From: Halopiger goleimassiliensis
GTDB taxonomy: Archaea > Halobacteriota > Halobacteria > Halobacteriales > Natrialbaceae
Direction of reading: 5' to 3'
Length of the DNA stretch: 64,000 bases
Assembly: GCF_000455345.1 (NCBI RefSeq)
Contig: NZ_HG315690.1
Span: 2,890,339 to 2,954,338, forward strand
Part shown: positions 23,416 through 39,557 of the stretch, piece after piece
Numbering within the stretch: the first letter of the stretch is position 1
How the letters are laid out: each line of letters starts with the position of its first letter
The notes under the pieces: model-generated
The model's input: the letters and a program-made list of their open reading frames with translations, nothing else
Told to the model about the DNA's origin: nothing
Database searches by the model: none
Program-made: the position numbers and the translations under genes

Positions 23416-25266
23416 ATGAGCGAACACACGACCCCATCCGACCGAGAGGCAGCGAACGGCGGCGACGAGACGACGGTCTCGACGTCGCGACGAACGATCA
23501 TGAAAGCGGCCGGGACGGCCGTCGTGGCCGGCGGCCTCGGGAGCGTTACCGGCAGCGTCACGGCACAGGAGGCCGACCTGCCGCCGCTGGCCCGCGACGG
23601 GAACAAGATCGTCGACCCCAGCGGTAACGAGGTCATCCTTCGTGGCGTCAACATCGCCGATCCGGGCGAACAAAGCCGCACGTGGCGCGGGCAAACCGCC
23701 CCGGAGACGTTCAAGCTCGCGACCGACGAAAGCGAGGGCTGGTACACGAACGTCGTCCGCGTGCCGGTTATGCCGGCGTTTCTCGCGTCCCAGACGACCG
23801 ATCCGTATCCGGACGATATGCCCCACGGCGACGACTGGGGACCGGCACTGCCGGGACAGTTCGACGCGAGCGACGTCGAGTGGTACTGTAACACGTACCT
23901 CGACGAACTCGTCGAGTTGGGTGCCCAGCGTGGCGCGTACGTGATGATCGACTACCACCGACACTACCCGGTCTTCCATCAGGAGGATCACAAGAACCAC
24001 GGCGTCCCCGGCAACGTCTGGCAGTGTTCGTCCGACGGCGGCGAGGACTGGCGCTATCCGGAGGTCTGTGGCGAACGCGGGGTCCTCTGGCACGGCGAGG
24101 ACCAGATCGACGAGATCTGGGATCTGATCTACGAACAGAACATCCTCGAGGCGTTCGACCTCGACGAGGACGACATCTACCTCGAGCCACCGGAGGTCTG
24201 TAACGCGCTCGACGAGGAACTGCACACGTTCTGGGAAGTCGTCGCCGACCGGTACGCGGGCGACGATCACGTCATCTTCGACGTGTACAACGAACCGACC
24301 GGACCGTACGGCGGCGACTGGGGCGGTCCACAGCGACAGGCCGGCGACCTCTCCGACCCGGCGGTCGCACCCGGCGACGCCGACGGCGACTACGACGTCG
24401 CCGTCGACGAGATGAAAGCCTGGTACGACCTGTGGGTCGAACGGGCCCAGCCGTGGGTCGACACGGTCGAGGAGAACGCCCCCGGTCACCTGATTACGAT
24501 CGGGTCGCCCCGCTGGAGCCAGTACACCTACTGGGCACCGTACAACGAGTTCGACGCCGAGAACATGTGCTACACCGCCCACGTCTACACGCAGGACGAC
24601 CTGCGGCCGCTCGATACGTACTTCGGCGAACCGTCGGAGTACGTCCCGGTCTTCTTCAGCGAGTTCGGCTGGATCGAAGGCGGCGGTATGCACGTCGACA
24701 CACCGTGGATGGACTGTTCCGGCGAACACGACGGGGACTGTGGTCCGTACATCGAGGGCTACGAGCAGTTCATCGACGAGTACGACGTCCATCCCCTCGC
24801 CTGGTCGTTCGACCATACCTACGAGCCGAACATGTTCGAACACGGCACCCCTGGGGCGAACGACGGCGCGAAGGGTGCCGACGACTGGATGGAGTATCTC
24901 AACGACGAGACGCCCGGCGTCTGGTGGCACGAACTCAACCAGCAACTGGTGGACGAGCGGTACGAACCCGCGCCGGGTGACGAACCGTACCCGGACGCCG
25001 ACAACGGCAAGAACCCGATTCACGTCGGCCCCGGTCCGATCGACGACGGGACGATCGAGGTCGGCGAGTACGAACCGCAGGATCCCGACGGTGACGGCCT
25101 CTACGACGACATCACCGGCGACGGGCAGACCAACCACGAGGACGTCGAGGCCTTCTACGAGCACATCGACGCCGACGGCGTCCAGTCGAATCCCGACGCC
25201 TTCGACTTCGATCAGGACGGGAACGTCAGCTTCGCCGACATTCTGGACCTGCTCGGGCGGCTCTGA
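23416..25266 (+). CDS. Secreted GH5 glycoside hydrolase with C-terminal dockerin
   Basis: The 616-residue protein is an endo-acting GH5 enzyme, probably an endoglucanase. A Tat signal (SRRTIMKAAG, residues 24-33) ends near VTAQEA. The (beta/alpha)8 catalytic domain spans about 58-515. VILRGVNIADPG is the usual GH5 start, IDYHRH lies at 178-183, the acid/base Glu293 is in YNEP and the nucleophile Glu416 is in FSEFGW. Several Cys pairs suggest disulfides. An acidic linker leads to a dockerin (556-616) with DxDxDG calcium loops. No CBM is present. It is the first of nine co-directional genes. ATG 23416 is chosen over an upstream start because it leaves a normal Tat leader. Confidence 0.92.
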   Translation: MSEHTTPSDREAANGGDETTVSTSRRTIMKAAGTAVVAGGLGSVTGSVTAQEADLPPLARDGNKIVDPSGNEVILRGVNIADPGEQSRTWRGQTAPETFKLATDESEGWYTNVVRVPVMPAFLASQTTDPYPDDMPHGDDWGPALPGQFDASDVEWYCNTYLDELVELGAQRGAYVMIDYHRHYPVFHQEDHKNHGVPGNVWQCSSDGGEDWRYPEVCGERGVLWHGEDQIDEIWDLIYEQNILEAFDLDEDDIYLEPPEVCNALDEELHTFWEVVADRYAGDDHVIFDVYNEPTGPYGGDWGGPQRQAGDLSDPAVAPGDADGDYDVAVDEMKAWYDLWVERAQPWVDTVEENAPGHLITIGSPRWSQYTYWAPYNEFDAENMCYTAHVYTQDDLRPLDTYFGEPSEYVPVFFSEFGWIEGGGMHVDTPWMDCSGEHDGDCGPYIEGYEQFIDEYDVHPLAWSFDHTYEPNMFEHGTPGANDGAKGADDWMEYLNDETPGVWWHELNQQLVDERYEPAPGDEPYPDADNGKNPIHVGPGPIDDGTIEVGEYEPQDPDGDGLYDDITGDGQTNHEDVEAFYEHIDADGVQSNPDAFDFDQDGNVSFADILDLLGRL

Positions 25267-25361
25267 TCGACTCCCCGAGACGAGCAACCGGCCGGTCGTT
25301 GACGGGCCGGCCGGAAGCCAGCGGGACGACCCGTCGTGCCGGCACCAACAGCTGTACGTGC

Positions 25362-25417
25362 CGTATTTTTCTCTACTTTAGTAGATAAAAAATCTTAATA
25401 CAGATTGGAATTAAAAC
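25362..25417 (+). promoter_or_regulatory. AT-rich promoter island before the scaffoldin gene
   Basis: A T-run (TATTTTT, 25364-25370) could end the GH5 transcript. It is followed by TTTAGTAGATAAAAAATCTTAATAC (25377 onward), close to the element in front of the other cluster genes. A Shine-Dalgarno-like GGAGG at 25498-25502 precedes the scaffoldin ATG by 9 bases, so this transcript is probably leadered. Confidence 0.5.
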
Positions 25418-25511
25418 AACCGCGTGTCCCTTACGCCGATGACTGGCACGCAAAAAACGGTCCGAGCGTGCCCAGGGGGGACAACAGACAGCACCGTGGA
25501 GGACGGTACTC

Positions 25512-27506
25512 ATGACGAACGATAACACCCACTCCGATCCGGAAGGACAGTCTACCGAGAACCGATCGACACCCACGTCACGTCGGTCGTTCATGAAAGC
25601 GACGGGCGTGAGCGCTGGCGTGCTCGCGTTCGGAACGTCGATGGCGGCAGCGCAGTCGGACCTGCCGACCGTATCGACCGAACTCGCCGACGACGTGATC
25701 GACGTCGGCGAGACGACGACCGCCACCATCGTGCTCGAGAACACGCCGGAAGACGAGATCGGCTCCGTCGTCGAGATCGACGTCGATACCGACGTCGCCA
25801 AACTCACCGACATCGAGGTCGGCGAGTACGTCCCGAACCAGCTCGAGGACAATTACCTCGAGGAGATCGAGGAAACCGGCGGGGCATCCGTCCGCGTCCA
25901 GTCGTGGGAACCGGGTGAACCGATCGCCGACGCCGACTACGAGATGATGACGGTCACCCTCGAAGGAGAGGCAGAGGGGGCCACCGAGATCGAACTCGTC
26001 GACTTCCTGCTGACGGACTCGGAGGGAGAGATCAACGAGGCCAACTACGAGGCACCGACGCTGACCGTCGGCGACGACGACACCGGCGGCGAGCCACCCG
26101 CGATGCCGACGGGCCTCGAGGTCGTCTCCGAGAACGAGACCTCGATCGAACTGGCGTGGAGCCCGGTCTCCGACGCCGTCGAGTACGCCGTCTCCGTCGA
26201 CGGCGAGCAGGAGAAGACGACGACGGCGACCGCCACGACGGTCCACGGCCTCGAGTCGGAGACCACCTACGAGATCGGCGTGAGTGCCGTCGACGAGGAC
26301 GGCAACGCCTCGGACCCGGCGACCGTCGAGGCCATGACCGTCCCCGGCTCCGAACCGGAAACGCCGACGGTCACCGTCGAACTCGCCGACGCGGCGATCG
26401 ATCCGAACGAGACGACGACCGTCGAACTCGGGCTGACCGAAGCGCCCAACGGGCTGGCCGGCTTCAACTTCAACACCTCCGTCGACACGGACGTCGCCAC
26501 GATCGTGGACGCCGAACTCGGCGAGACGTTCTCCGACGCCCTGTTCACCACTGTCGAGGTCTCCGACGAGACCGCGGTCATCGAAGCGGTGAAAGAGATC
26601 GAACCCGACTCCCCCGAGGCCACCGACCTCGACCTCGGGACCGTCGAAATCGAGGGCGTCGACGACGGCGAGACCGTCATCGACGTCACCGAACCCGAGG
26701 CCGAAACGCGCAGGACGGTCGACATCGACGGCACCCCCGTCGCACCCGACATCGAGTCGGCCACGCTAACCGTCGGCGATGGGGAACCCGAACCCCAACC
26801 GCCGAGCGTTCCCGAGGACCTCACGGTCGTCGAGGTCGACGAGACGTCCGTCGAAGTCGCCTGGAGTACGGACCCCAACGCCGTGGAGTACGTCGTCTAC
26901 CGCGACGGCCAGCACGAGACCACGACGACGGCGACCAGCGCGACGATCACCGGCCTCGAGCCGGACACCGCCTACGTGATCGGCGTCAGCGCCGTCGGCG
27001 AGACCGACGAGGAGACGGACACGGTGACGGTCGACGTGACGACCGACGAGGACGACGAAACCGATCCCGAACCCGATCCGGATCCGGAATACCCCGAGTG
27101 GGATCCCGACGAACTCTACCAGGAAGGCGACCGCGTCTCCTGGGACGGCGAGAACTGGGAAGCCAACTGGACGAACCAGGGCGAAGAACCCGAGTACGAC
27201 GAGTGGGGTGCCTGGGAGCCGGTCGACGGCGAGATTCCGCTCGAGCCGGGCGAAATCCACGCCGAGATCGATCCCTCGACGACGAGCGCCGAAGTCGGCG
27301 AACGGATCGAGTTCACCGCCGTCGACACCACGAGTCAGGGCAACTGGATCGAGAGCCTCGAGTGGGACTTTGACGACGGGACGACCGCCAGCGGCTGGTG
27401 GAACGCTCACAGTTACGACTCCAGCGGCGAGTACACCGTAACGCTCACCGCGGCAGACCAGCGCGGGCGGGAGACCACCCACGAGGTCACCATCTCGGTC
27501 TCGTAA
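25512..27506 (+). CDS. Scaffoldin-like protein: cohesin, Fn3, cohesin, Fn3, CBM5/12, PKD
   Basis: The 664-residue exported protein has no catalytic domain. In order it has a Tat signal (RR at 24-25, cleavage near AAAQS); cohesin-like domain 1 (about 53-187); Fn3 (196-278); cohesin-like domain 2 (285-422, with NGLAGFNFNTSVDTDVA typical of cohesin strands); Fn3 (432-511); an acidic Pro/Asp linker; a CBM5/12-like module (527-570: W530, Y536, W544, W549, W553); and a PKD domain (581-664). Cohesins bind dockerins, and six enzymes and one CBM-like protein beside it carry dockerins. It is therefore the likely assembly platform of an extracellular complex. There is no lipobox, PGF-CTERM or S-layer module, so it may be released. 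GH10 follows in the same probable transcript. Cohesin 1 is the less certain of the two. Confidence 0.85.
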   Translation: MTNDNTHSDPEGQSTENRSTPTSRRSFMKATGVSAGVLAFGTSMAAAQSDLPTVSTELADDVIDVGETTTATIVLENTPEDEIGSVVEIDVDTDVAKLTDIEVGEYVPNQLEDNYLEEIEETGGASVRVQSWEPGEPIADADYEMMTVTLEGEAEGATEIELVDFLLTDSEGEINEANYEAPTLTVGDDDTGGEPPAMPTGLEVVSENETSIELAWSPVSDAVEYAVSVDGEQEKTTTATATTVHGLESETTYEIGVSAVDEDGNASDPATVEAMTVPGSEPETPTVTVELADAAIDPNETTTVELGLTEAPNGLAGFNFNTSVDTDVATIVDAELGETFSDALFTTVEVSDETAVIEAVKEIEPDSPEATDLDLGTVEIEGVDDGETVIDVTEPEAETRRTVDIDGTPVAPDIESATLTVGDGEPEPQPPSVPEDLTVVEVDETSVEVAWSTDPNAVEYVVYRDGQHETTTTATSATITGLEPDTAYVIGVSAVGETDEETDTVTVDVTTDEDDETDPEPDPDPEYPEWDPDELYQEGDRVSWDGENWEANWTNQGEEPEYDEWGAWEPVDGEIPLEPGEIHAEIDPSTTSAEVGERIEFTAVDTTSQGNWIESLEWDFDDGTTASGWWNAHSYDSSGEYTVTLTAADQRGRETTHEVTISVS

Positions 27507-27751
27507 CGACGCGCTCGCGACGGACCGCCGACCGGTCCTCGCATCACGATCCAGCGATCGTCACCACACCACGCTCCGTCCCGGGTCGTCGGTCACGCTC
27601 CGACCGACCCTCGAGACCTGTCCACCGACTCACCTCACCGGGACGGCTCGCCCGTAGTCGTCACGGAGACGCAACCACCTCCCGAACCGGGGGTGTTCGA
27701 GAACGATTGTCCTGACGTTTCGGACGCCGATCACCACCCGCCCATACGACC

Positions 27752-29455
27752 ATGACAGACGATACCACGACACCCGATACGAACGACGCCGAATCGGCAG
27801 CACCGACGGACGAGGCGACCGACGACGGTCACGTACCCACGGTCGACCGCCGAACGTATCTGCAGGCCATCGCTGCCGCCGGCGCGCTGGGGACGCTCGG
27901 CGTCGAATCCGTCGCCACGGCCGGCGCGCAGACCGACGACTGGGAACGGGCGGCCGACGATCGCATCGCGACCCACCGGACCGGTGACCTCGAGGTCGTC
28001 GTTCGGGACCCGGCAGGACGAGCGATCCCGGATGCGACCGTCGAACTCGAGATGCAGGACCACGCGTACGGGTTCGGGACGGCCGTGAACGCGGAACTGC
28101 TCGTCGAGGGTGCTACCGACGACGAGTCGGTCGACGACGCCGATGTCGAGACGTATCGAGAACAGGTGGCGGACCTGTTCAACACGGCCGTGCTCGAGAA
28201 CTACCACAAGTGGCGGTTCTGGGAGGAAAACCGGGACGTCGCCGACGCCGCGACCGAGTGGCTCCTCGAGCAGGGACTCGACGTTCGCGGCCACACCTGC
28301 GTCTGGGGATCGTCGGACGCGTACGCGATTCCGCCGGACGTCCAGACGGCCATCGAGCAACGGGACGCAGAGACGATCCGCGAGCGAAGCCTCGAACACG
28401 TCGAGACGATCATCCGCCACTACGGCGACGACGTCGAGGAGTGGGACGTCGTCAACGAGGCGCTCCACGCCCACGATCTCCAGATCGGCGTCTACGACGA
28501 TGCGATCGACGAGGACCAACCCTGGACCGGCGAGGTCGTCCCCTGGCGGTCGGCGTTGCTGGCCGACTGGTGCGAACGCGCACGGGAGGTCGCGGACGAG
28601 GAAGGCGTCGACGTCGCGGTCAACGACTTCAACACCCTCGTCGGCCCCGAGGAGTACGCTCGAGACTGGTACACCGAGCAGATCGAGTTCCTCCGCGAGG
28701 AAGGGATCGACCTCGACGGGATCGGCTTCCAGTCACACGTCAGCGCCGACCAGCGGCTCTCGCCCGCGGAACTCGTCGCGGGACTGGACCAGTACGCTGA
28801 CTACGGGGCCGACCTCACCGTCACCGAGTTCGACATGTTCCAGGGCGACTGGGAGAGTCGCGAGCAGCAAGCGGCGTTCTTCCACGAGTTCCTGAAGACG
28901 TTCTTCAGCCATCCCGCGACGAGCGGCTTCCTCATGTGGGGGTTCTGGGACGGCGACCACTGGGCACCAGACTACGACGGCTCCGAGCCCGACGCGCCGC
29001 TGTACGAGGAAGACTGGACGCCCAAACCCGCCTACGACGTCTACGTCGATCTCGTGTTCGACGAGTGGTGGACCGAGACGTCGGGTGCGACCGACGCCGA
29101 CGGGCGTTTCGAGACGGCGGCGTTCCTCGGCACACACGACGTCACCGTCCACGTCGACGGCGCGTCGACGCGGAATCGAGTCGTCGTGGCCGACGCCGAC
29201 GAGACCACCGAGGTCGTCGTCACCGTCGACGGCCCCGGTACGATCGACATCGGCGAGTACCAGGCCCGGGACCCCGACGGCGACGGCCGCTACGACGATC
29301 TCACCGGCGACGGGCGGACCAACCACACGGACGTCGAGGCCTTCTACGAGCACCTCGACGCCGACGGGATCCAGGACAACCCCGAGGCCTTCGACTTCGA
29401 CGGCGACGGCCACGTCAGCTACGCCGACGTTCTCGAGTTGCTCGAGGAGTTGTAA
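27752..29455 (+). CDS. Secreted GH10 xylanase with C-terminal dockerin
   Basis: The 567-residue protein has a Tat-like leader (DRRTYLQAIAAAG, RR at 33-34). A short N-terminal beta domain (about 70-110) precedes a GH10 barrel to about residue 440. The acid/base Glu236 lies in WDVVNEAL and the nucleophile Glu359 in TVTEFD. NYHKWRFWE and RGHTCVWG are typical GH10 subsite motifs. A small beta domain (about 445-498, TDADGRFETAAFLGTHDV) and a dockerin (507-567) follow. GH10 enzymes cleave internal beta-1,4-xylan bonds. The 245-base gap before it is GC-rich with no AT island, so it is probably co-transcribed with the scaffoldin. Confidence 0.93.
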   Translation: MTDDTTTPDTNDAESAAPTDEATDDGHVPTVDRRTYLQAIAAAGALGTLGVESVATAGAQTDDWERAADDRIATHRTGDLEVVVRDPAGRAIPDATVELEMQDHAYGFGTAVNAELLVEGATDDESVDDADVETYREQVADLFNTAVLENYHKWRFWEENRDVADAATEWLLEQGLDVRGHTCVWGSSDAYAIPPDVQTAIEQRDAETIRERSLEHVETIIRHYGDDVEEWDVVNEALHAHDLQIGVYDDAIDEDQPWTGEVVPWRSALLADWCERAREVADEEGVDVAVNDFNTLVGPEEYARDWYTEQIEFLREEGIDLDGIGFQSHVSADQRLSPAELVAGLDQYADYGADLTVTEFDMFQGDWESREQQAAFFHEFLKTFFSHPATSGFLMWGFWDGDHWAPDYDGSEPDAPLYEEDWTPKPAYDVYVDLVFDEWWTETSGATDADGRFETAAFLGTHDVTVHVDGASTRNRVVVADADETTEVVVTVDGPGTIDIGEYQARDPDGDGRYDDLTGDGRTNHTDVEAFYEHLDADGIQDNPEAFDFDGDGHVSYADVLELLEEL

Positions 29456-29500
29456 CGACGGCCCACGCGGGTCCCTCGATTGGATCGACCACGCCGCCCG

Positions 29501-29580
29501 TGATTTATTTCTTGTATACTAAAAATAAAATCAAATATTTAATAAATAGATTTAATACTCGAAACTTAGTAAGAATAACT
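29501..29580 (+). promoter_or_regulatory. AT-rich promoter island before the second GH5 gene
   Basis: The stretch GATTTATTTCTTGTATACTA and the following AAAATAAAATCAAATATTT are the most AT-rich DNA of the window. They hold several TATA-like sites and possible T-rich termination signals for the GH10 transcript. The ATG of the next gene lies about 70 bases beyond. Confidence 0.45.
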
Positions 29581-29646
29581 ACTGCTCCGGCACCATCGCG
29601 GACCGCCGGAGCGAGACGGAGACCAACACTAATTGACGGGGCGACA

Positions 29647-31683
29647 ATGCACGACAACGACACACCACGGCAATCGACCGAATCGACAGCGACGAACGAG
29701 AACACGCGCCGCCGCGTACTGAACGAGGTCGACGACTCGGCCTCACCCATCGAACTCAGTCGTCGCGGGATGATGCGAACGGCCGCCGGGGCCGGCCTCG
29801 CCAGCCTCGCGCTCGGGGCCGGACTCAGCGGTACGGCCGCGGCCGACGGCATCGAGAACTTCCAGAACCTGACGGTCAGCAGCGACAACCGGATCGTCAA
29901 CGAGGACGGTGAGACGTTCAAGATGCGGGGGATCAACATCCCCGATCCGAAGCGGGTCCACCGGACGCGGTACCTGCGCGGCAAGACGCCCACCCAGATC
30001 GTCGACATGCTGACCGACGAGGACGCCGGCTGGTATCCGCGCGTCATCCGCGTCCCGGCACAGCCACAGGACATCGGCGAGCATCCGATGGGCCACACCG
30101 GGCCGACCTACGAGTTCGGCGAACTCGAGTCCCCACAGGCCGTCGACGACGACCGGCGGAAGATGCGCCCGCCACAGCCCGTCGCGTTCACCGAGGAACA
30201 ACTCGAGGACTACCTCGAGACCTACTACGATCCGGTCGTCGAGCGCTGTAAGGAACAGGGCGTCTACTGCATCGTCGATTACCACCGCCACTGGCACGAA
30301 CAGCCGCCGGGTATCGAGGAGCCGTCCTACGCCGAGAACCACCTGCCCTACGACAGCGAGTACACGAACTACTGGGCGTACAACAGCCACGAGATGTTCG
30401 GCCCGGAGGAGCCGGGGTCGTGGGGATACGTCGACCAGGTGTTCATCAACAACACGCCCGGGGACGGTTACGTCGAGGGGCTCAACAGCGAGAGCGACCT
30501 CCCCGGAACGCCGTACGCCTACGAGAACTGGACGGTCAACCAGGAACTGCTGGATGAGGTGCTCCTGTTCTGGGACGTCGTGGCGGAGCGGTACGCCGAC
30601 GAGCCTCACGTGCTCTTCGAGCCGTACAACGAGCCGACCGCGCCGGGCATCTGGGGTCCCGTCGAGGGCTGTTCGGCGTTCAAGCAAAAGCCCCTCTGGG
30701 ACACGTTCGTCGACGAGTTCATGGGGCCGATCATCGAGAAGATCCGCGAGTACCAGTCCGATCGCGTGCTGCTGGTCGGCGTCCCCGGCTGGTGTCAGTC
30801 GGTCCAGGCACTCCACTGGCGGGACTTCAACGACGCGGGCTACGACGACATCGCCGTCACGTGGCACAACTACGCGGGCCACGACGTCAGCCAGATGAAC
30901 AACTGGTTCAACGATACGAGCTACCAGTCACCGGAAGCCGTCGAAGCCGAAACCGGGGAAGCCCTCGAGGAGCCGTACCTGCCGGTCGACGATCACCCCG
31001 ACCACATGACGGACTGCTACGGCTGGGAGGCCTACGAGGCGGCGGGACTCCAGAACGCGATGGACCACCACCCGATCGCCGTCACGGAGTTCGGCTGGAT
31101 CAACGATCCCGACGTCTCCCACTGGCTGCGCGGAACGACCACCGGGCAGGGGACCCTGCCCGAGTACGGGGTGCCGTTCCTCGACCAGATCGAGCAGGAC
31201 GACCGGATCAGCTGGGTCGCCTGGTGTGCCGACGTCCGCTGGCTACCGAAGATGTTCGAGTATCCGGCCGCGCCGGAGGAAGGCGACCTCGACCTCGTCA
31301 ACGACAACTTCTACGACACGCCGATGGAGGACATCCCCGCACCTTGCGAAGACCTGCCCTGCGAGTGGGACCTCATCGGCGGCGAGAACAGCGGCGTCTA
31401 CCTCAAACAGCAACTCGAGGCCCACAAGGACGACGACGTGCCGTTCGAGACCGGCCCGATCGACGACACGATCGAGGTCGGCGAGTACGAACCCGAGGAC
31501 CCGACCGGGGACGGCCTCTACGACGACGTCACCGGCGACGGGCAGACCAACCACGAGGACGTCCAGGCCTTCTACGAGCACATCGACGACGAGGGCGTCC
31601 AGGAGAACCCCGACGCCTTCGACTTCGATCAGGACGGGAGCGTCAGCTTCGCCGACGTCCTCGAGTTGCTCAATCGACTCTGA
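29647..31683 (+). CDS. Secreted GH5 glycoside hydrolase with C-terminal dockerin
   Basis: The 678-residue protein has a long pre-sequence, then a Tat signal (LSRRGMMRTAAGAG, RR at 39-40). The catalytic domain (about 75-595) is homologous to that of the GH5 at 23416: FKMRGINIPDP, IVDYHRHWHE (209-218), acid/base Glu329 in YNEP and nucleophile Glu481 in TEFGW. Insertions around 220-295 and 420-465 make it longer than the first paralogue and may shape the substrate cleft. The dockerin occupies 618-678. Substrate is probably a beta-1,4-glucan, inferred from cluster context. ATG 29647 is chosen because it directly precedes the Tat leader. Confidence 0.9.
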   Translation: MHDNDTPRQSTESTATNENTRRRVLNEVDDSASPIELSRRGMMRTAAGAGLASLALGAGLSGTAAADGIENFQNLTVSSDNRIVNEDGETFKMRGINIPDPKRVHRTRYLRGKTPTQIVDMLTDEDAGWYPRVIRVPAQPQDIGEHPMGHTGPTYEFGELESPQAVDDDRRKMRPPQPVAFTEEQLEDYLETYYDPVVERCKEQGVYCIVDYHRHWHEQPPGIEEPSYAENHLPYDSEYTNYWAYNSHEMFGPEEPGSWGYVDQVFINNTPGDGYVEGLNSESDLPGTPYAYENWTVNQELLDEVLLFWDVVAERYADEPHVLFEPYNEPTAPGIWGPVEGCSAFKQKPLWDTFVDEFMGPIIEKIREYQSDRVLLVGVPGWCQSVQALHWRDFNDAGYDDIAVTWHNYAGHDVSQMNNWFNDTSYQSPEAVEAETGEALEEPYLPVDDHPDHMTDCYGWEAYEAAGLQNAMDHHPIAVTEFGWINDPDVSHWLRGTTTGQGTLPEYGVPFLDQIEQDDRISWVAWCADVRWLPKMFEYPAAPEEGDLDLVNDNFYDTPMEDIPAPCEDLPCEWDLIGGENSGVYLKQQLEAHKDDDVPFETGPIDDTIEVGEYEPEDPTGDGLYDDVTGDGQTNHEDVQAFYEHIDDEGVQENPDAFDFDQDGSVSFADVLELLNRL

Positions 31684-31741
31684 TACTCTCGGCTGACCAC
31701 CGGCACGGACGCACACCCCGGACCAGTCCCAATTCCCCACT

Positions 31742-31786
31742 CCTATTCTAGAAAATTTACTATATTCTAGGTAAAATTTATTGCTT
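31742..31786 (+). promoter_or_regulatory. Tandem CTAG elements before the GH9 gene
   Basis: Two direct copies, TTCTAGAAAATTTA (31746-31759) and TTCTAGGTAAAATTTA (31765-31780), stand 19 bases apart. This is the clearest instance of the element shared by the cluster promoters. CTAG is generally under-represented in haloarchaeal DNA, so its clustering is notable. Confidence 0.5.
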
Positions 31787-31836
31787 CTGGAGGACATTCC
31801 CCGGTGAGATCGCAGGCTGCGGTCTCCGGAGCCACC

Positions 31837-33897
31837 ATGCCAGGATCAACGAACGGTTCGAACGGAGAATCGACGACAGCGGATCGAAACCGAGGGCGGA
31901 ACGCCGGTCGCGAGCGGTCGAGGCGGCGCTTCCTGCAGTCGACGGCGGTCGCGGGTGCGGCCGTCGCCGGGTTCGGAACGCTCTCCGGGACGGCGGCGGC
32001 GGAGTTCGTCGTCGACGACCGACCGGTTCGCGTCGATCAGGTCGGATATCTCCCCGATGCGGCCAAGATGGCCGTCGTCCTCGAGGACACCGAGACGTTC
32101 GAGGTGAAAGACGCCACTACGGGCGAGGTCGTCTACGAGGGCTCGGTATCGGCACCGATGGACGACCCGGCGTCGGGCCAGACGGTTCGCCACGCGACGT
32201 TTTCCGACGTGACGACGCCCGGCGAGTACGTCGTCGCCGTCGACGGCGGCACGTCGTATCCGTTCCGGATCGCCGAGGACGTCTACGACGAAGCGCTGGC
32301 GACGATGGGGCGGTTGTTCACCCTCAAACGGGCGGGAACCCGGATCGAAGATCCGATCACCGGCGTCGAGATCGGCCCGGGGCACACGCAGGACGCGAAC
32401 GCGGCGATGGCTGCACCCGACGACGCGTTCTACGACGAGGGCGAACCCCTCGACGTCTCCGGCGGCTGGTACGACGCCGGCGATTACGGCAAGTACGTGA
32501 CCCCAACCGCGATTTCGGTCGGCTGTCTGTTGTTCGCCTACGAGCGCAACCCCGAGGCGTTCTCGGTGGGACAGTTCGACGTGCCGGACAGCGTCGATGA
32601 CCCCCACGTCGGCACCATGCCGGACGTCCTCGTGGAGTGTCGAACCGCACTCGAGTGGCTCGAGGCGATGCAACGACCCGACGGCGGACTCTACTACACC
32701 GTCGCCGGACTCGAGTTCCCCGAGATGGAGACGAGACCCGCGGAGGACGGGATGGACCGGTACGTCTTCGGCCTCTCCTCGGCCGGCACCGCGATGGCCG
32801 CGGCGGCGTTCGCCCGGGCGGCACGGCTCTATGCGGACCACCAGCCGGCGTTCGCCGACCGGATGCTCGCGAACGCCGAAGACGCGTTCGACTTCCTCGA
32901 GGCCAACCCCGACGTCGTCTGGCGCGAAGATCCGGGACAAAACGAGGGGTCGGGAGCGTATACCAGATCCGAGGACGAAGAGGACCGGTTCTGGGCCGCG
33001 GCGGAGTTGCTCAAGACGACCGGCGAGGACCAGTACGCCGAGTACATCGAGTCGGAACTGTCGCACCTGTTTTCCGAAGGGCCGGTAACGTACGACTGGA
33101 CCTCCGGGTTCACGATCGGACTGTGGGCCTACCGCACCGCCGACGCGAGTGATCCGAGCCGGACCGCCCAGATCGAAGACGAAATCGTCGGCTGGGCCTA
33201 CTACATCCTCGAGGAGTCGATCCAGGGCGACGGCTACAACAACGCGTTGGACAGCTACTACTGGGGCTGTCTCAAAAACGGCGTCGGGCGAGGCCACGTG
33301 CTGTTGCTCGCCAACGAGATCCAGCCCAACGACGCGTTCGTCGAGGCCGCGATGGACCAGTTGCACCACCTCTTCGGCCGGAGCGCGACGGGCTTCAGCT
33401 ACGTCACCGGGATCGGAACCCTGACGCCGGAGAACCCCCACGATCGGATCGTCGAGAGCACCGGAACCGTGCTTCCCGGCATGGTCGTCGGCGGGCCCAA
33501 CGAGAGCGCCCCCCAGGAAGGTGACGACTCCGGCGACTACATCGACCCGGACACCCCGCCGGCGCTGTCGTACGTCGACGTCACGGGCTCGTACGCGACG
33601 AACGAGTGGGCGATCAACTACTCCGCACCGGTGGTGTTGCTGGTCTCGGAGTTCGTCGACCTCGAGGACGGCGACGATGGGCCGATTCAGGTCGGCGACT
33701 ACGAGGCACAGGACCCCGACGGCGACGGCCTGTACGACGACGTCACCGGCGACGGACGGACCAACCACGAGGACGTCCAGGCCTTCTACGAGCACATCGA
33801 CGCCGAGGGCGTCCAGAACAACCCCACCGCTTTCGACTTCGACGAAGACGGCCGCGTCGGCTTCGCCGACGTCCTCGAACTGCTCGAGGAACTGTAA
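31837..33897 (+). CDS. Secreted GH9 endoglucanase with Ig-like domain and dockerin
   Basis: The 686-residue protein has a Tat signal (RSRRRFLQSTAVAG), an N-terminal Ig-like cellulase domain (about 58-145, VRVDQVGYLPDAAKMAVV) and a GH9 (alpha/alpha)6 barrel (about 148-606). Catalytic Asp213 and Asp216 lie in WYDAGDYGKY, the conserved His motif in PENPHDR (531-537) and the general acid Glu590 in YATNEWAINY. The dockerin is residues 626-686. GH9 enzymes are inverting beta-1,4-glucanases and are major cellulosome components in clostridia. An in-frame GTG at 31804 has GGAGG 10 bases upstream and could be the true start, adding 11 residues. Confidence 0.93.
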   Translation: MPGSTNGSNGESTTADRNRGRNAGRERSRRRFLQSTAVAGAAVAGFGTLSGTAAAEFVVDDRPVRVDQVGYLPDAAKMAVVLEDTETFEVKDATTGEVVYEGSVSAPMDDPASGQTVRHATFSDVTTPGEYVVAVDGGTSYPFRIAEDVYDEALATMGRLFTLKRAGTRIEDPITGVEIGPGHTQDANAAMAAPDDAFYDEGEPLDVSGGWYDAGDYGKYVTPTAISVGCLLFAYERNPEAFSVGQFDVPDSVDDPHVGTMPDVLVECRTALEWLEAMQRPDGGLYYTVAGLEFPEMETRPAEDGMDRYVFGLSSAGTAMAAAAFARAARLYADHQPAFADRMLANAEDAFDFLEANPDVVWREDPGQNEGSGAYTRSEDEEDRFWAAAELLKTTGEDQYAEYIESELSHLFSEGPVTYDWTSGFTIGLWAYRTADASDPSRTAQIEDEIVGWAYYILEESIQGDGYNNALDSYYWGCLKNGVGRGHVLLLANEIQPNDAFVEAAMDQLHHLFGRSATGFSYVTGIGTLTPENPHDRIVESTGTVLPGMVVGGPNESAPQEGDDSGDYIDPDTPPALSYVDVTGSYATNEWAINYSAPVVLLVSEFVDLEDGDDGPIQVGDYEAQDPDGDGLYDDVTGDGRTNHEDVQAFYEHIDAEGVQNNPTAFDFDEDGRVGFADVLELLEEL

Positions 33898-33907
33898 GCC
33901 CCACAGA

Positions 33908-33939
33908 CACCGTTATTACAATTAAAAATATTTGAAAAT
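33908..33939 (+). promoter_or_regulatory. AT-rich leaderless promoter before the third GH5 gene
   Basis: The bases directly before ATG 33940 are TTACAATTAAAAATATTTGA and neighbours, almost free of G and C. A TATA box at about -25 to -20 would give a leaderless or near-leaderless mRNA, common in haloarchaea. Only 42 bases separate this gene from the GH9 stop. Confidence 0.5.
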
Positions 33940-35433
33940 ATGGTAGAACGACGTGATTCGACGCCGTCACGGCGACCCGGACGGCCCGAAACGGTACAGT
34001 CGACGCGACGGACGTTCGTGAAAGCGACCGGCGTCGGCGTCGCCGGCCTCGGATTCGGTCCCCTCACGGGGACGGCCGCCGCGGTCGACAATCCGACGCC
34101 GCGACTGCACACCGACGGCAAGTGGATCGTCACCGAGGACGGGCAACGAGTCAAACTCCGCGGGTTCGCGACGGCGTCGCTGGATTACATGCAGGAGTGG
34201 TACTTCCCCAAAACCCAGACGGAGGTCCTCGAGCAGGCGACCGACGGCGAGACGTGGCACCCGAACACGATCCGGCTACCGGTCGGGGAAGACGCGGTCC
34301 ACGAGCAGGGTATGGAGTACGTCGTCGACGAACTGCTGCGGCCCGCGGTCGACCTGCTGGGCGACCGCGGCGTGTACGCGCTGATCGACTTCCACCTCAT
34401 CCGGCCCTACATCGACACGCTGAATCAGGCCGAAGAGATGGTCGAAGACGGGTGGGCGAACAGTCTCGACGGGCTCGGGTTCAACCCGTGGGTCGACACC
34501 GACGACCTGCTCGAGGAGTTCTGGTCGACGGTCGCACCTGCCTTCGCCGACGACGATCACGTCCTCTTCGAGTTGTTCAACGAACCGACCCTGCCGGTCA
34601 CGTGGTCGGAGTACGGCGAGTACGGGGACGACGTCGAGACCGAGGAAGACGAGTGGCTGTACTGGCGCGACGCCGCCCAGCCGTGGGTCGACCTGATTCG
34701 CGAGGAGGCCCCGGAGACGCCGGTCGTCATCGGCTCGCCGGACTGGACCTCCCGGACCAGGTTCGCCGCCGAGTATCCGTTCGAGGGCGAGAACCTCGTC
34801 TACGCCTCCCACATCTACCCGCCGGACGGGCTGCCCCACGACACGCGGGAGGTCGCCGACGGTACCGGCGGTACCTACGAGGCCGGCCCCTTCGATCCGG
34901 AGTACGGCGCACCCGCCGAGGAGGTGCCGGTCATCTGTACCGAGTTCGGGTGGGATCCCGACCTCGAGGAGGACGACGAGGGTTACGGTCACACCTCGTC
35001 GTGGGGCGAGCCGGTCCGCGAGTGGCTGGAGTCGTACGAGAACATGGGCTGGATCGCGTGGTGTTTCGACGACACCTGGGCACCGACGTTCTTCGAGTCA
35101 CCGACCGACGGAGCCGACGAACCGTGGGAACTGAAAGACGATTCCGAGCAGATGGGCTGGTTCGTCCGGGACTGGCTCGAGGAGACGCGCGACGACACGT
35201 TCCGTGACCCGAACGAGCCGATCCCGGTCGGCGACTACGAGGCCCACGATCCCGACGGCGACGGCCTGTACGACGACGTCACCGGCGACGGACGGACCAA
35301 CCACGAGGACGTCGAAGCATTCTACGAGCACCTCGACGCCGACGGGGTCCAGAAAAATCCCGACGCCTTCGACTTCGACGAGGACGATAACGTCAGCTAC
35401 GCCGACGTCCTCGAGTTGCTCGAGCGACTCTGA
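33940..35433 (+). CDS. Secreted GH5 glycoside hydrolase with C-terminal dockerin
   Basis: The 497-residue protein has a Tat signal (STRRTFVKATG, RR at 23-24) and a compact GH5 barrel (about 52-425). KLRGFATASLDYM starts the domain, LIDFHLIRPY lies at 148-157, the acid/base Glu215 is in FNEP and the nucleophile Glu335 in TEFGWD. The final barrel strand carries IAWCFDDTWAP. The dockerin is 437-497. It differs clearly from the two larger GH5 paralogues and likely belongs to another GH5 subfamily; specificity cannot be assigned. Its second calcium loop reads EDDN where others have EDGH. Confidence 0.9.
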   Translation: MVERRDSTPSRRPGRPETVQSTRRTFVKATGVGVAGLGFGPLTGTAAAVDNPTPRLHTDGKWIVTEDGQRVKLRGFATASLDYMQEWYFPKTQTEVLEQATDGETWHPNTIRLPVGEDAVHEQGMEYVVDELLRPAVDLLGDRGVYALIDFHLIRPYIDTLNQAEEMVEDGWANSLDGLGFNPWVDTDDLLEEFWSTVAPAFADDDHVLFELFNEPTLPVTWSEYGEYGDDVETEEDEWLYWRDAAQPWVDLIREEAPETPVVIGSPDWTSRTRFAAEYPFEGENLVYASHIYPPDGLPHDTREVADGTGGTYEAGPFDPEYGAPAEEVPVICTEFGWDPDLEEDDEGYGHTSSWGEPVREWLESYENMGWIAWCFDDTWAPTFFESPTDGADEPWELKDDSEQMGWFVRDWLEETRDDTFRDPNEPIPVGDYEAHDPDGDGLYDDVTGDGRTNHEDVEAFYEHLDADGVQKNPDAFDFDEDDNVSYADVLELLERL

Positions 35434-35459
35434 CGGGACCGGGGTCACTACCTCCCCGA

Positions 35460-35503
35460 CAGTTATTTTTATACTACTTCGAGTTAATTATACTGGTGAA
35501 GAT
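35460..35503 (+). promoter_or_regulatory. AT-rich promoter before the CBM-dockerin gene
   Basis: TTATTTTTATAC (35462-35473) is a candidate TATA element or T-rich terminator of the preceding gene. It is followed by GAGTTAATTATAC and a Shine-Dalgarno-like GGTGA about five bases before ATG 35504. Confidence 0.45.
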
Positions 35504-36226
35504 ATGAATACGTCCGACACACGTGGACGCTCCACCACGAACGCCACCCTCCCGTCGATTCAGCAATCGACCGACGGCCCGGTCGTCATCGAGGACTTCT
35601 CGTCGTGGCCCGGGGAGAACCGACTCGGCGAGTACTCGAACGCGGGCGCGTTCGCGAACGGCGACGGCGAACTGGTCGAGGACGCCTTGCGACTCGAGTT
35701 CGACGACGGCGGCTGGTTCCTCAGCAACGTTCGAGCGGACCTCTCGGGGTACACCCACCTCGAGCTGGACGTCCGTGGCGACGACGGCGGCGAGGAGTCT
35801 GCCGTCTTCCTCGAGATCGACAGCGTTGCAGGTCCGCTCGGCTCGCTGACCGACGAGTCGATCGAGACCGAGTTCACGACCGTCGGCGTCGACCTCGAGG
35901 CCGTCGGCGTCGATCCGTCGTCGGTACAGGACGTGTGGCTGACCTGCTGGAACGCCGGCAGCGGTGCGATCGAGATCGACGAACTCCGGTTCGTCGACCG
36001 GGACGGCGATACGATCACGGTCGGCGACCACGACGCCCGCGATCCCGACGGGGATGGCCGCTACGACGACGTCACCGGCGACGGCCTGACCAACCACGAG
36101 GACGTCGAGGCCTTCTACGAACACCTCGACGCCGACGGCGTCCAGGAGAACCCCGACGCCTTCGACTTCGACGAGGACGGTCACGTCAGCTACGCCGACG
36201 TCCTCGAACTCCTGGACGACCTCTAG
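35504..36226 (+). CDS. CBM-like module fused to dockerin, no signal peptide
   Basis: The 240-residue protein has two parts. Residues 26-166 form a beta-sandwich-like module (VVIEDFSS, LRLEFDDGGWFLSN, LDVRGDDGGEE, FTTVGVDL) that resembles carbohydrate-binding jelly-roll domains. Residues 180-240 are a dockerin. The same module occurs in the next gene at residues 43-182. No catalytic residues are evident, so it may add a binding function to the complex. The 25-residue N-terminus (MNTSDTRGRSTTNATL) has no Tat, Sec or lipobox feature, unlike every other dockerin protein here, and no in-frame upstream start repairs it. It may be exported by another route or be a decayed gene. Confidence 0.8.
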   Translation: MNTSDTRGRSTTNATLPSIQQSTDGPVVIEDFSSWPGENRLGEYSNAGAFANGDGELVEDALRLEFDDGGWFLSNVRADLSGYTHLELDVRGDDGGEESAVFLEIDSVAGPLGSLTDESIETEFTTVGVDLEAVGVDPSSVQDVWLTCWNAGSGAIEIDELRFVDRDGDTITVGDHDARDPDGDGRYDDVTGDGLTNHEDVEAFYEHLDADGVQENPDAFDFDEDGHVSYADVLELLDDL

Positions 36227-36239
36227 CTCGCCGCAGTCG

Positions 36240-36299
36240 CGTATTTTCCATAATCTAGTACTAGAAAATATTTATTATTCGGAAGTCGAATTAATATGT
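36240..36299 (+). promoter_or_regulatory. AT-rich promoter before the unknown-domain gene
   Basis: TAATCTAGTACTAGAAAAT (36251-36269), followed by ATTTATTATTC, matches the cluster element and lies about 30-50 bases before ATG 36300, right for a TATA/BRE region of a leaderless mRNA. The CTAGTACTAG palindrome (36254-36263) is a plausible operator. Confidence 0.5.
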
Positions 36300-38009
36300 A
36301 TGGCCAAACGGAGAGCCGTCCTGAAGAACGGTATCGCCGTCGGAACAGCCGCGCTGGTCGGCCTGAGCGCCGGCGGAACGGGGACGACGGCTGCGACGCA
36401 GCAGGACAGCGAGACCGGGACGTCCGGGCTCGTCGTCAACGACTTCGAAGCGGGCGCGTACCCGGGGACGAACGAACTCGAGGAGTGGGCCGACCACGTC
36501 GCGTTCGATGGCGAGGACCTCGACGACGGCGTGTTGCGACTCGAGTACGACGACGGCGGGTTCTTCGCGACCAATCTCTTCGCCGATCTCTCGGCCTACG
36601 ATCGGCTCGAACTGGTCGTCCGCGGTGACGACGGCGGCGAGGAAACCGACGTCGACCTCAGGATCGGAAACGTTCGCGATCGGCTGGCGAACCTGACCGA
36701 CGACGCGATCGGAACCGAGTTCACGACCGTCGACGTCGACCTCGAGGACGCCGGCGTCGACCGATCGGCCGTCAGACAGCTTCGGCTCGCGTTCTGGCAC
36801 GGTGCCAGCGGGGCCATCGAACTCGAGGAGATCGCGTTCGTCGACGAGGGCTCGAGCGGCGGTGGGGAGCTGACTCCCGACACGACGCTGGCCGAGTTCT
36901 ACCCCGAGTACGACGAGGAGACCTACATCGAACAGGTCTGGACACAGTATCTCCCCGGCGACACCGACGCCGACGGCCACGGCGACTACGGCGACGTCGA
37001 CTGGCCCGACGAGCAGAAGGCGGCCGAGTTCGACGTCGACCTGGACGCGATTCAGGAGACGGTCGGCGACGGGACGCTCACGTTCGGGGAGATGGGCACG
37101 CAGGCGCTCGAACACGTCAAGCAGTACGAGGCCGAAGGGGTCCCGCGGCGGGCCAGCGTGAAGCTCCTGCCGCGACTGAGCCTGCTTCCCGACGAGACCG
37201 AGGAGCCGTCCTACCACAACGAGCCGATGGACTTCTGGGACGAGACCGCGGGACCGATCCCCGCGACGAACGATCCGGACCAACTCGTGCAGGAGCCGTG
37301 GCCGACCGACGCGGCGACCTACGACCCCGAGGAGGTCGCCGAGCGTGACCGGGCTCACGACCAGCCGGAACACGAGGACGGCGAGGGCTGGACCCGCGCC
37401 GACCGCCTCCCCGACGAGCGCTACTACGACGACGAGAACCCGATCCACGACATCGCCGACGGAATCCACCCCGCGACGGGCGACCCGCTCGGCGGCGACG
37501 GCTTCACCGCGAACGCGCCGATGGAGGTCGAGGCGAAGATCCACGAGCAAAACGGCGGTTTCTGGTATCAGGTTCTGCAGTTCAAGAACACGAGCGCGGT
37601 CCCGTACCACCTGAACGCCGCGGTGATCATGTGGATCGGCCCGTCGGGCGCGAACGGGCAGTTGCGAGCCGGCCACTACAACAACGAACAGCGCCCGGAC
37701 CCGGGCTACGGCCACCCCCAGCGCGACGTCATCGAGGTCGTCCACGACGAGGAGCGTGCGCTGTCGGCCTACGCCGTCCGCCTCGCGTTCCACGACGAGC
37801 CGTACAACATGCGGACGGCCTACCCGAACCAGTACTGGAGCCTCGAGCAGGGCATGACCCCGCCCGAGGGCCACTTCGAGACGCCCGAGGAACGCCAGGA
37901 ACTGGTCGACATCATGGCCGAAACCTGTCACGTCGAGATCGAGACCGACATGGACCGCAACGACGCGCTGCTCGATGCGGTCGACCTGCGCAACCGGATG
38001 ACGAACTAA
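36300..38009 (+). CDS. Exported protein: CBM-like module plus unrecognised 380-residue domain
   Basis: The 569-residue protein has a Tat-type leader (KRRAVLKNGIAVGTAALVG) cut near ATQQD. Residues 43-182 repeat the CBM-like module of the CBM-dockerin protein. Residues 190-569 form a domain I do not recognise. It is rich in Glu, Asp, Tyr and His, with HVKQYEAEGVPRRASVKLLPR (272-292), DENPIHDIADGIHPATGDP (378-396), FWYQVLQFKNTSAVPYHLNA (421-440) and GQLRAGHYNNEQRPDPGYG (453-471). It has no dockerin, unlike the enzymes around it. The mature N-terminus is not His, so a standard LPMO is unlikely. GH5_7-like mannanase follows 78 bases later, probably in the same transcript. An unknown polysaccharide-active or binding protein is the best guess. 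Confidence 0.75.
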   Translation: MAKRRAVLKNGIAVGTAALVGLSAGGTGTTAATQQDSETGTSGLVVNDFEAGAYPGTNELEEWADHVAFDGEDLDDGVLRLEYDDGGFFATNLFADLSAYDRLELVVRGDDGGEETDVDLRIGNVRDRLANLTDDAIGTEFTTVDVDLEDAGVDRSAVRQLRLAFWHGASGAIELEEIAFVDEGSSGGGELTPDTTLAEFYPEYDEETYIEQVWTQYLPGDTDADGHGDYGDVDWPDEQKAAEFDVDLDAIQETVGDGTLTFGEMGTQALEHVKQYEAEGVPRRASVKLLPRLSLLPDETEEPSYHNEPMDFWDETAGPIPATNDPDQLVQEPWPTDAATYDPEEVAERDRAHDQPEHEDGEGWTRADRLPDERYYDDENPIHDIADGIHPATGDPLGGDGFTANAPMEVEAKIHEQNGGFWYQVLQFKNTSAVPYHLNAAVIMWIGPSGANGQLRAGHYNNEQRPDPGYGHPQRDVIEVVHDEERALSAYAVRLAFHDEPYNMRTAYPNQYWSLEQGMTPPEGHFETPEERQELVDIMAETCHVEIETDMDRNDALLDAVDLRNRMTN

Positions 38010-38087
38010 TCTCGAGCGGAACCGGCCCCCGGCCCGTCGACTGCGGCGCTGCCGGCCGGAGAACGGACCACGAGACCCGACCAAATC

Positions 38088-39557
38088 ATGACACGACACC
38101 AGTCGACTGAAACCGACGAGACGATCGATCGAACGGTACGGACGACCCGACGCGGATTCGTGAAAGCCGTCGGTACGGGCGCGGCGCTCACCGTCGGACT
38201 CGGCAGCGCGTCGCCGGCGACCGCGGCGGTCGACGCGCCGATGGACGCGTTCGTCCGGACCGACGGCACCGAGTTCGTCGTCGACGGCGAACCGGTCTAC
38301 TTCACCGGTGCGAACAACTTCTGGATCACCCACGAGTACGAGGGCACGAAAGAACGGATCGACGACGTCCTCGACCTCTACGCGGACCTGGGGATCGACC
38401 TCGTCCGGTTCTGGGCGCACGGGGAGGGGAAAGACGGCCCCCTCGCGCTCCAGCCCGAACCGGGCGAGTACAACGAGGACGCCCTCGAGAACCTCGATTA
38501 CCTGATCGAAGCGGCCAGGGAGCGTGGCATCAGGCTCGTCGCGGCGCTGGTCGACAACTGGGACCACGAGGGCGGCATGCTCCAGTACGCCGAGTGGGCC
38601 GGCGGCGAGTCGCGCTACGAGTTCTACACGATGGACGAGACCCGCGAGATGTATCGCGACCACGTCGAGACCATCCTGACGCGCGAGAACACCTACAGCG
38701 GACTCGAGTGGCGTGAGGACCCGACGATCGCGATGTGGGAGCTGGCCAACGAGCCCCGCCTCGAGCAGGACGACGTCCCCGAGGGGATGGACGACCTCGA
38801 ACCGCCCGAGCACAAGGAGATCCTCGGCGACTGGATCCAGGAGATGTCGGCGTACCTCACGGACCTCGACGACGACCACCTCGTCTCGACGGGGTCGGAA
38901 GGCCACTACTACGGCGACTGGGACGACGACTACCCCGACGACGACTGGGACGGCCAATCGTACCTCGACCACCACGCGTTCGAGACGATCGACGCCTGCT
39001 CGTTCCACCTGTACCCCGACCACTGGGACATCCCGCTGGAGGACGGCGCGGAGTACGTCCAGAGCCGGATCGTCGACGCCCACGAGGAACTCGGCAAGCC
39101 GGCCTACCTCGGCGAGTTCAACGTCAACGCGTACGAACACGACCTCGAGACGAAAAACGAGTATCTCGAGGCGTGGTACGACGTCGCCGACGAGTACGAC
39201 TGCAACGCCGTCATCCCCTGGCAGGTCGTCCTCGAGGAGACGCAGGATCACGACGGGTTCCAGATCTACGCGAGCGAATCGGGTCACCTCATCGAATCCT
39301 ACGCCGACGCCGCGGCCGCGAAGAGCGGAACCTGGGACGACTCGATCCAGGTCGGCGACTACGAGGCACGGGACCCCGACGGCGACGGCCTGTACGACGA
39401 CGTCACCGGCGACGGACGGACCAACCACGAGGACGTCGAGGCCTTCTACGAACACCTCGACGCCGACGGCGTCCAGGAAAATCCCGACGCCTTCGACTTC
39501 GACGAGGACGGCCACGTCGGCTTCGCCGACGTCCTCGAACTGCTCGAGGGGCTGTGA
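38088..39557 (+). CDS. Secreted GH5 (mannanase-like) with C-terminal dockerin
   Basis: The 489-residue protein has a Tat signal (TTRRGFVKAVGTG, RR at 21-22). The barrel (about 50-412) opens FVVDGEPVYFTGANNFW, the style of GH5_7 beta-mannanases. The acid/base Glu222 is in WELANEPR and the nucleophile Glu343 in LGEFNVN. HLYPDHW at 307-313 fits the catalytic His/Tyr region. The dockerin is 429-489. The likely activity is endo-beta-1,4-mannan hydrolysis, inferred from motif resemblance only. It is the last gene of the cluster and is convergent with RNase Z. Confidence 0.9.
   Translation: MTRHQSTETDETIDRTVRTTRRGFVKAVGTGAALTVGLGSASPATAAVDAPMDAFVRTDGTEFVVDGEPVYFTGANNFWITHEYEGTKERIDDVLDLYADLGIDLVRFWAHGEGKDGPLALQPEPGEYNEDALENLDYLIEAARERGIRLVAALVDNWDHEGGMLQYAEWAGGESRYEFYTMDETREMYRDHVETILTRENTYSGLEWREDPTIAMWELANEPRLEQDDVPEGMDDLEPPEHKEILGDWIQEMSAYLTDLDDDHLVSTGSEGHYYGDWDDDYPDDDWDGQSYLDHHAFETIDACSFHLYPDHWDIPLEDGAEYVQSRIVDAHEELGKPAYLGEFNVNAYEHDLETKNEYLEAWYDVADEYDCNAVIPWQVVLEETQDHDGFQIYASESGHLIESYADAAAAKSGTWDDSIQVGDYEARDPDGDGLYDDVTGDGRTNHEDVEAFYEHLDADGVQENPDAFDFDEDGHVGFADVLELLEGL

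Follow-up and report, generated by a model that had tools for sequence, protein, structure and literature searches.

Nine consecutive genes of Halopiger goleimassiliensis, all on the plus strand, very likely encode a small cellulosome-like system that would assemble outside the cell at high salt, with dockerins on the enzymes binding cohesins on a scaffoldin. They occupy positions 23416-39557 of a 64,000-nucleotide stretch of contig NZ_HG315690.1 (the window), as placed by an initial annotation that had read the cluster as one scaffoldin and seven dockerin proteins. Fold, conservation, co-occurrence, concerted dockerin evolution and multi-cohesin relatives support this reading; the proposed anatomy was right, and the proposed meaning is probably right too. 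The genes and modules are listed below, where Tat denotes twin-arginine translocation, GH a glycoside hydrolase family, CBM a carbohydrate-binding module and aa amino acids.

23416-25266, plus strand: GH5a, Tat-exported cellulase with C-terminal dockerin (PF00150 E 5.9e-18; Dockerin_1 21.7 bits)
25512-27506, plus strand: scaffoldin, Tat signal-Coh1-FN3-Coh2-FN3-CBM5/12-like-PKD (Pfam, family alignment, TIGR01409)
25659-26078, plus strand: Coh1, putative divergent cohesin, aa 50-189 (family cohesin profile E 6e-46, the profile containing the Coh1 row; own tree clade)
26355-26783, plus strand: Coh2, predicted cohesin, aa 282-424 (PF00963 E 7.8e-4 when searched alone; AlphaFold pLDDT 91; PDB fold matches)
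27096-27215, plus strand: CBM5/12-like module of the scaffoldin, aa 529-568 (PF02839 E 5.9e-5, slightly below cut-off)
27752-29455, plus strand: GH10, Tat-exported, C-terminal dockerin (PF00331 E 4.6e-44; Dockerin_1 26.5 bits)
29644-31683, plus strand: GH5b, Tat-exported, C-terminal dockerin (PF00150 E 5.4e-17; Dockerin_1 29.7 bits)
31837-33897, plus strand: GH9 cellulase, Tat-exported, CelD_N Ig domain, C-terminal dockerin (PF00759 E 2.5e-78; PF02927; Dockerin_1 23.8 bits)
33940-35433, plus strand: GH5c, Tat-exported, C-terminal dockerin (PF00150 E 2.4e-29; Dockerin_1 21.8 bits)
35501-36226, plus strand: CBM6-like (galactose-binding-like) protein with C-terminal dockerin, without visible signal peptide (Dockerin_1 23.2 bits)
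36300-38009, plus strand: Tat-exported protein without dockerin, CBM6-like module (as in 35501-36226) plus conserved 370-aa domain (homologs in cohesin-dockerin clusters)
38088-39557, plus strand: GH5d, Tat-exported, C-terminal dockerin (PF00150 E 9.2e-10; Dockerin_1 21.4 bits)

The claim that seven proteins end in a dockerin was borne out. A Pfam protein scan placed Dockerin_1 (PF00404) at the C-terminus of exactly seven cluster proteins, six of them glycoside hydrolases, at 21.4-29.7 bits for a gathering cut-off of 22.9 bits, and all seven exceeded the family cut-off in a whole-genome scan. Just two further dockerins appeared in that scan, both on the second replicon. Each cluster dockerin contains two canonical calcium loops, DxTxDGxxNxxD and DxDxDxxx(S/G)xxD, and a profile search of the Protein Data Bank (PDB) returned the C. 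thermocellum CelS dockerins as top matches (E 1.4e-4). With a duplicated calcium-binding loop and scores above the cut-off, the seven are type I dockerins. They are close to one another: over the C-terminal 72 residues, six of them are 72-83% identical to the dockerin protein encoded first, GH5a, whose dockerin spans about 25048-25263. Pfam also agreed with the proposed set of four GH5, one GH10 and one GH9 enzymes, the GH9 with a CelD_N Ig domain, and its scan of the cluster proteins found no recognised CBM on the enzymes, as had been claimed. Tat signals had been assigned to all proteins but one; these held, with the correction that the remaining protein, 35501-36226, has no visible signal peptide of any kind. 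Its closest homolog (in genome G320) likewise has none, and homologs in G295, G296 and G169 begin with a likely signal.

The scaffoldin has no catalytic domain, dockerin or anchor. Its Tat signal scored above the TIGR01409 cut-off, and the Pfam scan found two FN3 domains and one PKD domain. The CBM5/12-like module proposed for it was recovered slightly under the PF02839 cut-off (23.5 bits for a cut-off of 26.2) and is kept in orthologs. The cohesin family PF00963 was absent from the whole-protein scan, Coh1 included; Coh2 searched alone reached 20.1 bits, under the gathering cut-off of 24.1. A 20-row profile of haloarchaeal cohesins, searched against all PDB sequences, gave 11 matches, ten of which were cellulosome cohesin chains (best E 1.4e-4). 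We also used a stricter profile, confined to scaffoldin-cluster cohesins by dropping two rows that match the Pfam cohesin family, the PhoX rows and the single-cohesin rows of other loci; the Scaffoldin C cohesin 5lxv still came first, at E 0.036 only.

An AlphaFold model of Coh2 built from a seven-row homolog alignment has nine strands and a mean predicted local distance difference test (pLDDT) score of 91; a single-sequence model reached 36 and was discarded. Foldseek with this model returned cohesins as essentially all of the 50 best PDB matches (E 3.8e-8, template modelling score about 0.7-0.75), mostly from cohesin-dockerin complexes and with Archaeoglobus 2xdh also among the best. The model gives good support to a predicted cohesin fold for Coh2, a nine-stranded jelly roll like those of solved cohesins. 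Coh1 is homologous to Coh2 within the family, which suggests the same fold. The cohesins initially placed at residues 53-187 and 285-422 were thus upheld for Coh2 by profile and fold, with close boundaries, and for Coh1 by homology, with PF00963 below its cut-off.

The cluster recurs in related genomes. Nine genomes (G211, G255, G208, G320, G321, G324, G317, G122 and G174) encode scaffoldin orthologs, each with two or three cohesins, and in eight of them the same GH5-dockerin gene lies directly upstream (73-83% identical to GH5a), with more dockerin glycoside hydrolase genes after the scaffoldin. Orthologs of GH5b are present in ten genomes at 61-79% identity. G255 is Natrinema ejinorense JCM 13890, from another genus of Natrialbaceae; the whole cluster is conserved in other genera, which excludes chance. 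A contig search with the scaffoldin sequence alone gave no match, and one with the scaffoldin alignment reached N. ejinorense, N. salsiterrestre and, weakly and in the FN3 region, a Thermoplasmata metagenome-assembled genome. No relatives were found in the viral contigs searched. Scaffoldin-homolog counts (141/293 genomes) were rejected as evidence, most of them matching just the CBM5/12-PKD or FN3 parts.

Dockerins and cohesins of these types travel together. We searched 125 Natrialbaceae genomes separately with the window dockerin profile and the scaffoldin cohesin profile; each type was found in 58, with 54 genomes carrying both, four and four only one, and 63 neither (Fisher p 1.7e-25, across related genomes). 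Among genomes with both, copy numbers rise together (Spearman 0.87), and every genome with at least six such dockerins has at least three such cohesins. The dockerins also follow the genome, not the enzyme. Across nine genomes, dockerins within one genome are 79.2% identical while the enzyme bodies, where alignable, are 29% identical; for orthologous enzymes of different genomes, the figures are 66.2% for dockerins and 75% for bodies (pairs are not independent). Between-genome distances of dockerins and cohesins remain correlated in 12 genomes after correction for one enzyme body (partial r 0.66, Mantel p 2e-4). Homogenised dockerins and cohesin distances that track them are what is expected if the dockerins of one genome share a partner.

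Some relatives carry far larger platforms. In G295, a 1755-aa protein (L057:7114-12378) with a Tat signal, a GH5 domain, eight cohesins and a CBM6-like module is followed by a 258-aa Tat-cohesin-anchor protein (L057:12658-13431), in a cluster with at least 15 dockerin proteins. The protein sizes, in order 637, 610, 1755, 258, 759, 741, 577, 815 and 835, fit the published Natronoglomus mannanivorans cluster, in which the 1755-aa protein is a 'GH5/CBM6 endoglucanase', the 258-aa protein an 'S-layer glycoprotein' and the dockerins substrate-binding (PMC10963439). Pfam finds no cohesins in either protein, and the published annotations appear to overlook eight plus one. A catalytic scaffoldin of G296 carries ten cohesins, a G169 protein has at least five before the contig ends, and Halococcoides cellulosivorans (G003) encodes at least 21 dockerins and shows 15 cohesin matches. 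The eight- and ten-cohesin scaffoldins have a C-terminal module homologous to the N-terminal one of 35501-36226.

These patterns bear on another view of the dockerins, as substrate-binding or calcium-stabilising tails of free enzymes, with the cohesin-like protein a mere adhesin. Substrate binding was asserted for Natronoglomus and again for a glycosaminoglycan (GAG) lyase, and enzymes at high salt could gain stability from EF-hand-like calcium sites. Such tails are nonetheless improbable here: the two domain types co-occur and scale together, dockerins are homogenised by genome and not by substrate or enzyme class, and dockerin-rich genomes have multi-cohesin proteins in the same cluster. Cohesins go unmentioned in the Natronoglomus and GAG lyase papers, and even in the 1755-aa protein they escape Pfam.

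As a cellulosome-like system, the cluster would work as follows. Enzymes and scaffold would fold in the cytoplasm and leave via Tat, as their signal sequences suggest. Outside the cell, calcium-loaded C-terminal dockerins would bind the scaffoldin cohesins, a step to which fold, co-occurrence and concerted evolution point, to give complexes with at most two enzymes per scaffold. With seven dockerins so nearly alike in sequence, any enzyme should fit a given site, and the complexes would form a mixed population. The CBM5/12-like and PKD modules of the scaffold would take the enzymes to insoluble cellulose, which would account for the absence of a CBM from the enzymes. The scaffold has neither a dockerin nor a membrane anchor, so the complex is probably cell-free in this strain. 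In relatives, an anchored single-cohesin protein beside the scaffoldin could keep enzymes on the surface; G208, G320 and G321 encode one with a C-terminal anchor, and its cohesin groups with Coh2.

The same anchored proteins suit an explanation in which the pairing is real and mainly serves surface tethering by single-cohesin anchors, leaving the two-cohesin scaffold as a cross-linker or cellulose adhesin. Anchored cohesin proteins are also encoded on C2 of the window genome. We regard this as quite unlikely, given that the window cluster has no such anchor and that relatives with 3, 8 and 10 cohesins per protein display a platform architecture. That the two scaffold domains merely resemble cohesins and are generic linkers of the Ig-like or Big type is hardly credible, despite the PF00963 scores and a weak Big_12 match, as cohesins came first in the PDB profile (E 1e-4) and fold (4e-8) searches and family cohesins co-occur with dockerins.

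Several observations weigh against a cellulosome-like system. Two cohesins are few for seven dockerins, and Coh1, which lacks the GLxGF-type motif seen in Coh2 and branches as a separate clade of the cohesin tree, may bind another partner or nothing. Because Coh1 belongs to a separate divergent lineage, the two cohesins may not be equal sites for the seven dockerins. The CBM of the scaffold is matched weakly, and the match is to the chitin/cellulose 5/12 type rather than to CBM3. One two-cohesin scaffoldin, in G317 (L067), has no adjacent dockerin enzymes and is possibly a remnant. A good part of the presence/absence signal across the family comes from one conserved pair, a PhoX-cohesin-dockerin protein and an adjacent cohesin protein, in genomes that are not independent. 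Among the 9 closest genomes the partial correlation is 0.55, and the permutation p belongs to the 12-genome set alone. Dockerins could have been homogenised by gene conversion, with no common partner involved.

The clostridial plan invoked by the initial annotation held for the layout and failed for the modules. Like the simple cellulosomes of mesophilic clostridia (C. acetobutylicum, R. cellulolyticum), the cluster joins a multi-cohesin, non-catalytic, CBM-bearing scaffoldin to dockerin-bearing glycoside hydrolases. Clostridial scaffolds have an N-terminal CBM3, often with X2 modules, whereas this one has CBM5/12-like, FN3 and PKD modules; because CBM3 is missing, we do not class the cluster as a clostridial simple cellulosome. 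It differs further in being archaeal, high-salt and Tat-exported, in having only two cohesins, and in that these are acidic, score below the Pfam cut-off and have haloarchaeal, not clostridial, nearest kin. Nor does it match the surface-anchored (complex) type, the window scaffoldin having no dockerin to bind an anchoring scaffoldin. The N. mannanivorans cellulase/mannanase cluster is similarly a GH5/GH10 dockerin cluster, whose published description is of free enzymes with dockerins that bind substrate (PMC10963439); we read it instead as an eight-cohesin GH5 scaffoldin plus a cohesin-bearing 258-aa protein. The Archaeoglobus fulgidus cohesin 2xdh shares an archaeal cohesin fold with Coh2, but its PDB title terms it non-cellulosomal, whereas the window cohesins sit among dockerin glycosidases.

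Cellulosomes are regarded as machinery of anaerobic bacteria; fungi have related complexes. A 2024 survey of 305,693 prokaryotic genomes, based on hidden Markov models (HMMs), found them in bacteria only, and the same study reported divergent Ruminococcus cohesins that AlphaFold found and HMMs missed (PMC11557425). Its working definition is at least one protein with at least two cohesins plus at least one dockerin-fused glycoside hydrolase. Here Coh1 and Coh2 supply the two cohesins, though not by the Pfam cut-off alone, and six glycoside hydrolases carry Dockerin_1. A paper comparing cellulotrophic haloarchaea does not mention cohesin or dockerin, and searches in 5.39 million open-access papers yielded no description of an archaeal cellulosome; subscription literature lay outside the search, and novelty is provisional. 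If the system is real, cellulosome architecture, here exported in folded form through Tat and put together close to salt saturation, reaches a further domain of life. Published cellulolytic and mannanolytic haloarchaea would need to be re-annotated, and protein engineering would gain salt-stable cohesin-dockerin pairs. The abundance of dockerins with no evident partner in these genomes would also be accounted for, since many of their cohesins score under the threshold of standard cohesin models.

The cohesin tree, which took in no bacterial cohesins, points to cohesins that expanded separately in different genera and to a Coh1 clade apart from the rest; its deep forks are weakly resolved. We lean towards an origin of archaeal cellulosomes from a resident haloarchaeal cohesin-dockerin stock and not by clostridial import, with several expansions to scaffoldins of 2-14 cohesins for different substrates (cellulose/mannan; subtilisin-type proteases in another genus), such that scaffolded extracellular complexes would be a general haloarchaeal strategy.

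Other cohesin proteins were seen along the way. A PhoX-like phosphatase with a C-terminal cohesin and dockerin (L041:1812-4457 on C2 of G000; L045, L046, L047) is widespread in Natrialbaceae and in relatives stands beside a single-cohesin anchored protein; this pair is a possible ancestral stock of the scaffoldin system. In Natrialbaceae genus g6, a C-terminally anchored 2087-aa protein carries 14 Pfam cohesins (L069 and L070 in G261), and its counterpart in G087 is split over two loci (L071, L072). Around these lie subtilase S8 proteins with dockerins and often cohesins, and the signals are Sec-type, not Tat; the whole looks like a cell-surface protease complex of cellulosome design. In other haloarchaeal families, proteins with three to five cohesins and a C-terminal dockerin (L078 in G265, L079 in G061, L074 in G003) may act like polyvalent adaptors.

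Within the window, intergenic stretches inspected by eye showed no obvious shared cis-regulatory motif. The sole ARAGORN hit (57441-57515) has an undetermined anticodon, lies within a long open reading frame and is probably a false positive. The dockerin-free protein 36300-38009 gave no match in Pfam and NCBIfam scans, nor its 370-aa domain a convincing PDB match. Homologs 65-74% identical to it occur in four larger cohesin-dockerin clusters, and the 370-aa domain, sometimes fused to CBM5/12-PKD, is present in 32 of 292 haloarchaea. A 578-aa homolog in G295 fits a published 'CBM3' entry by size.

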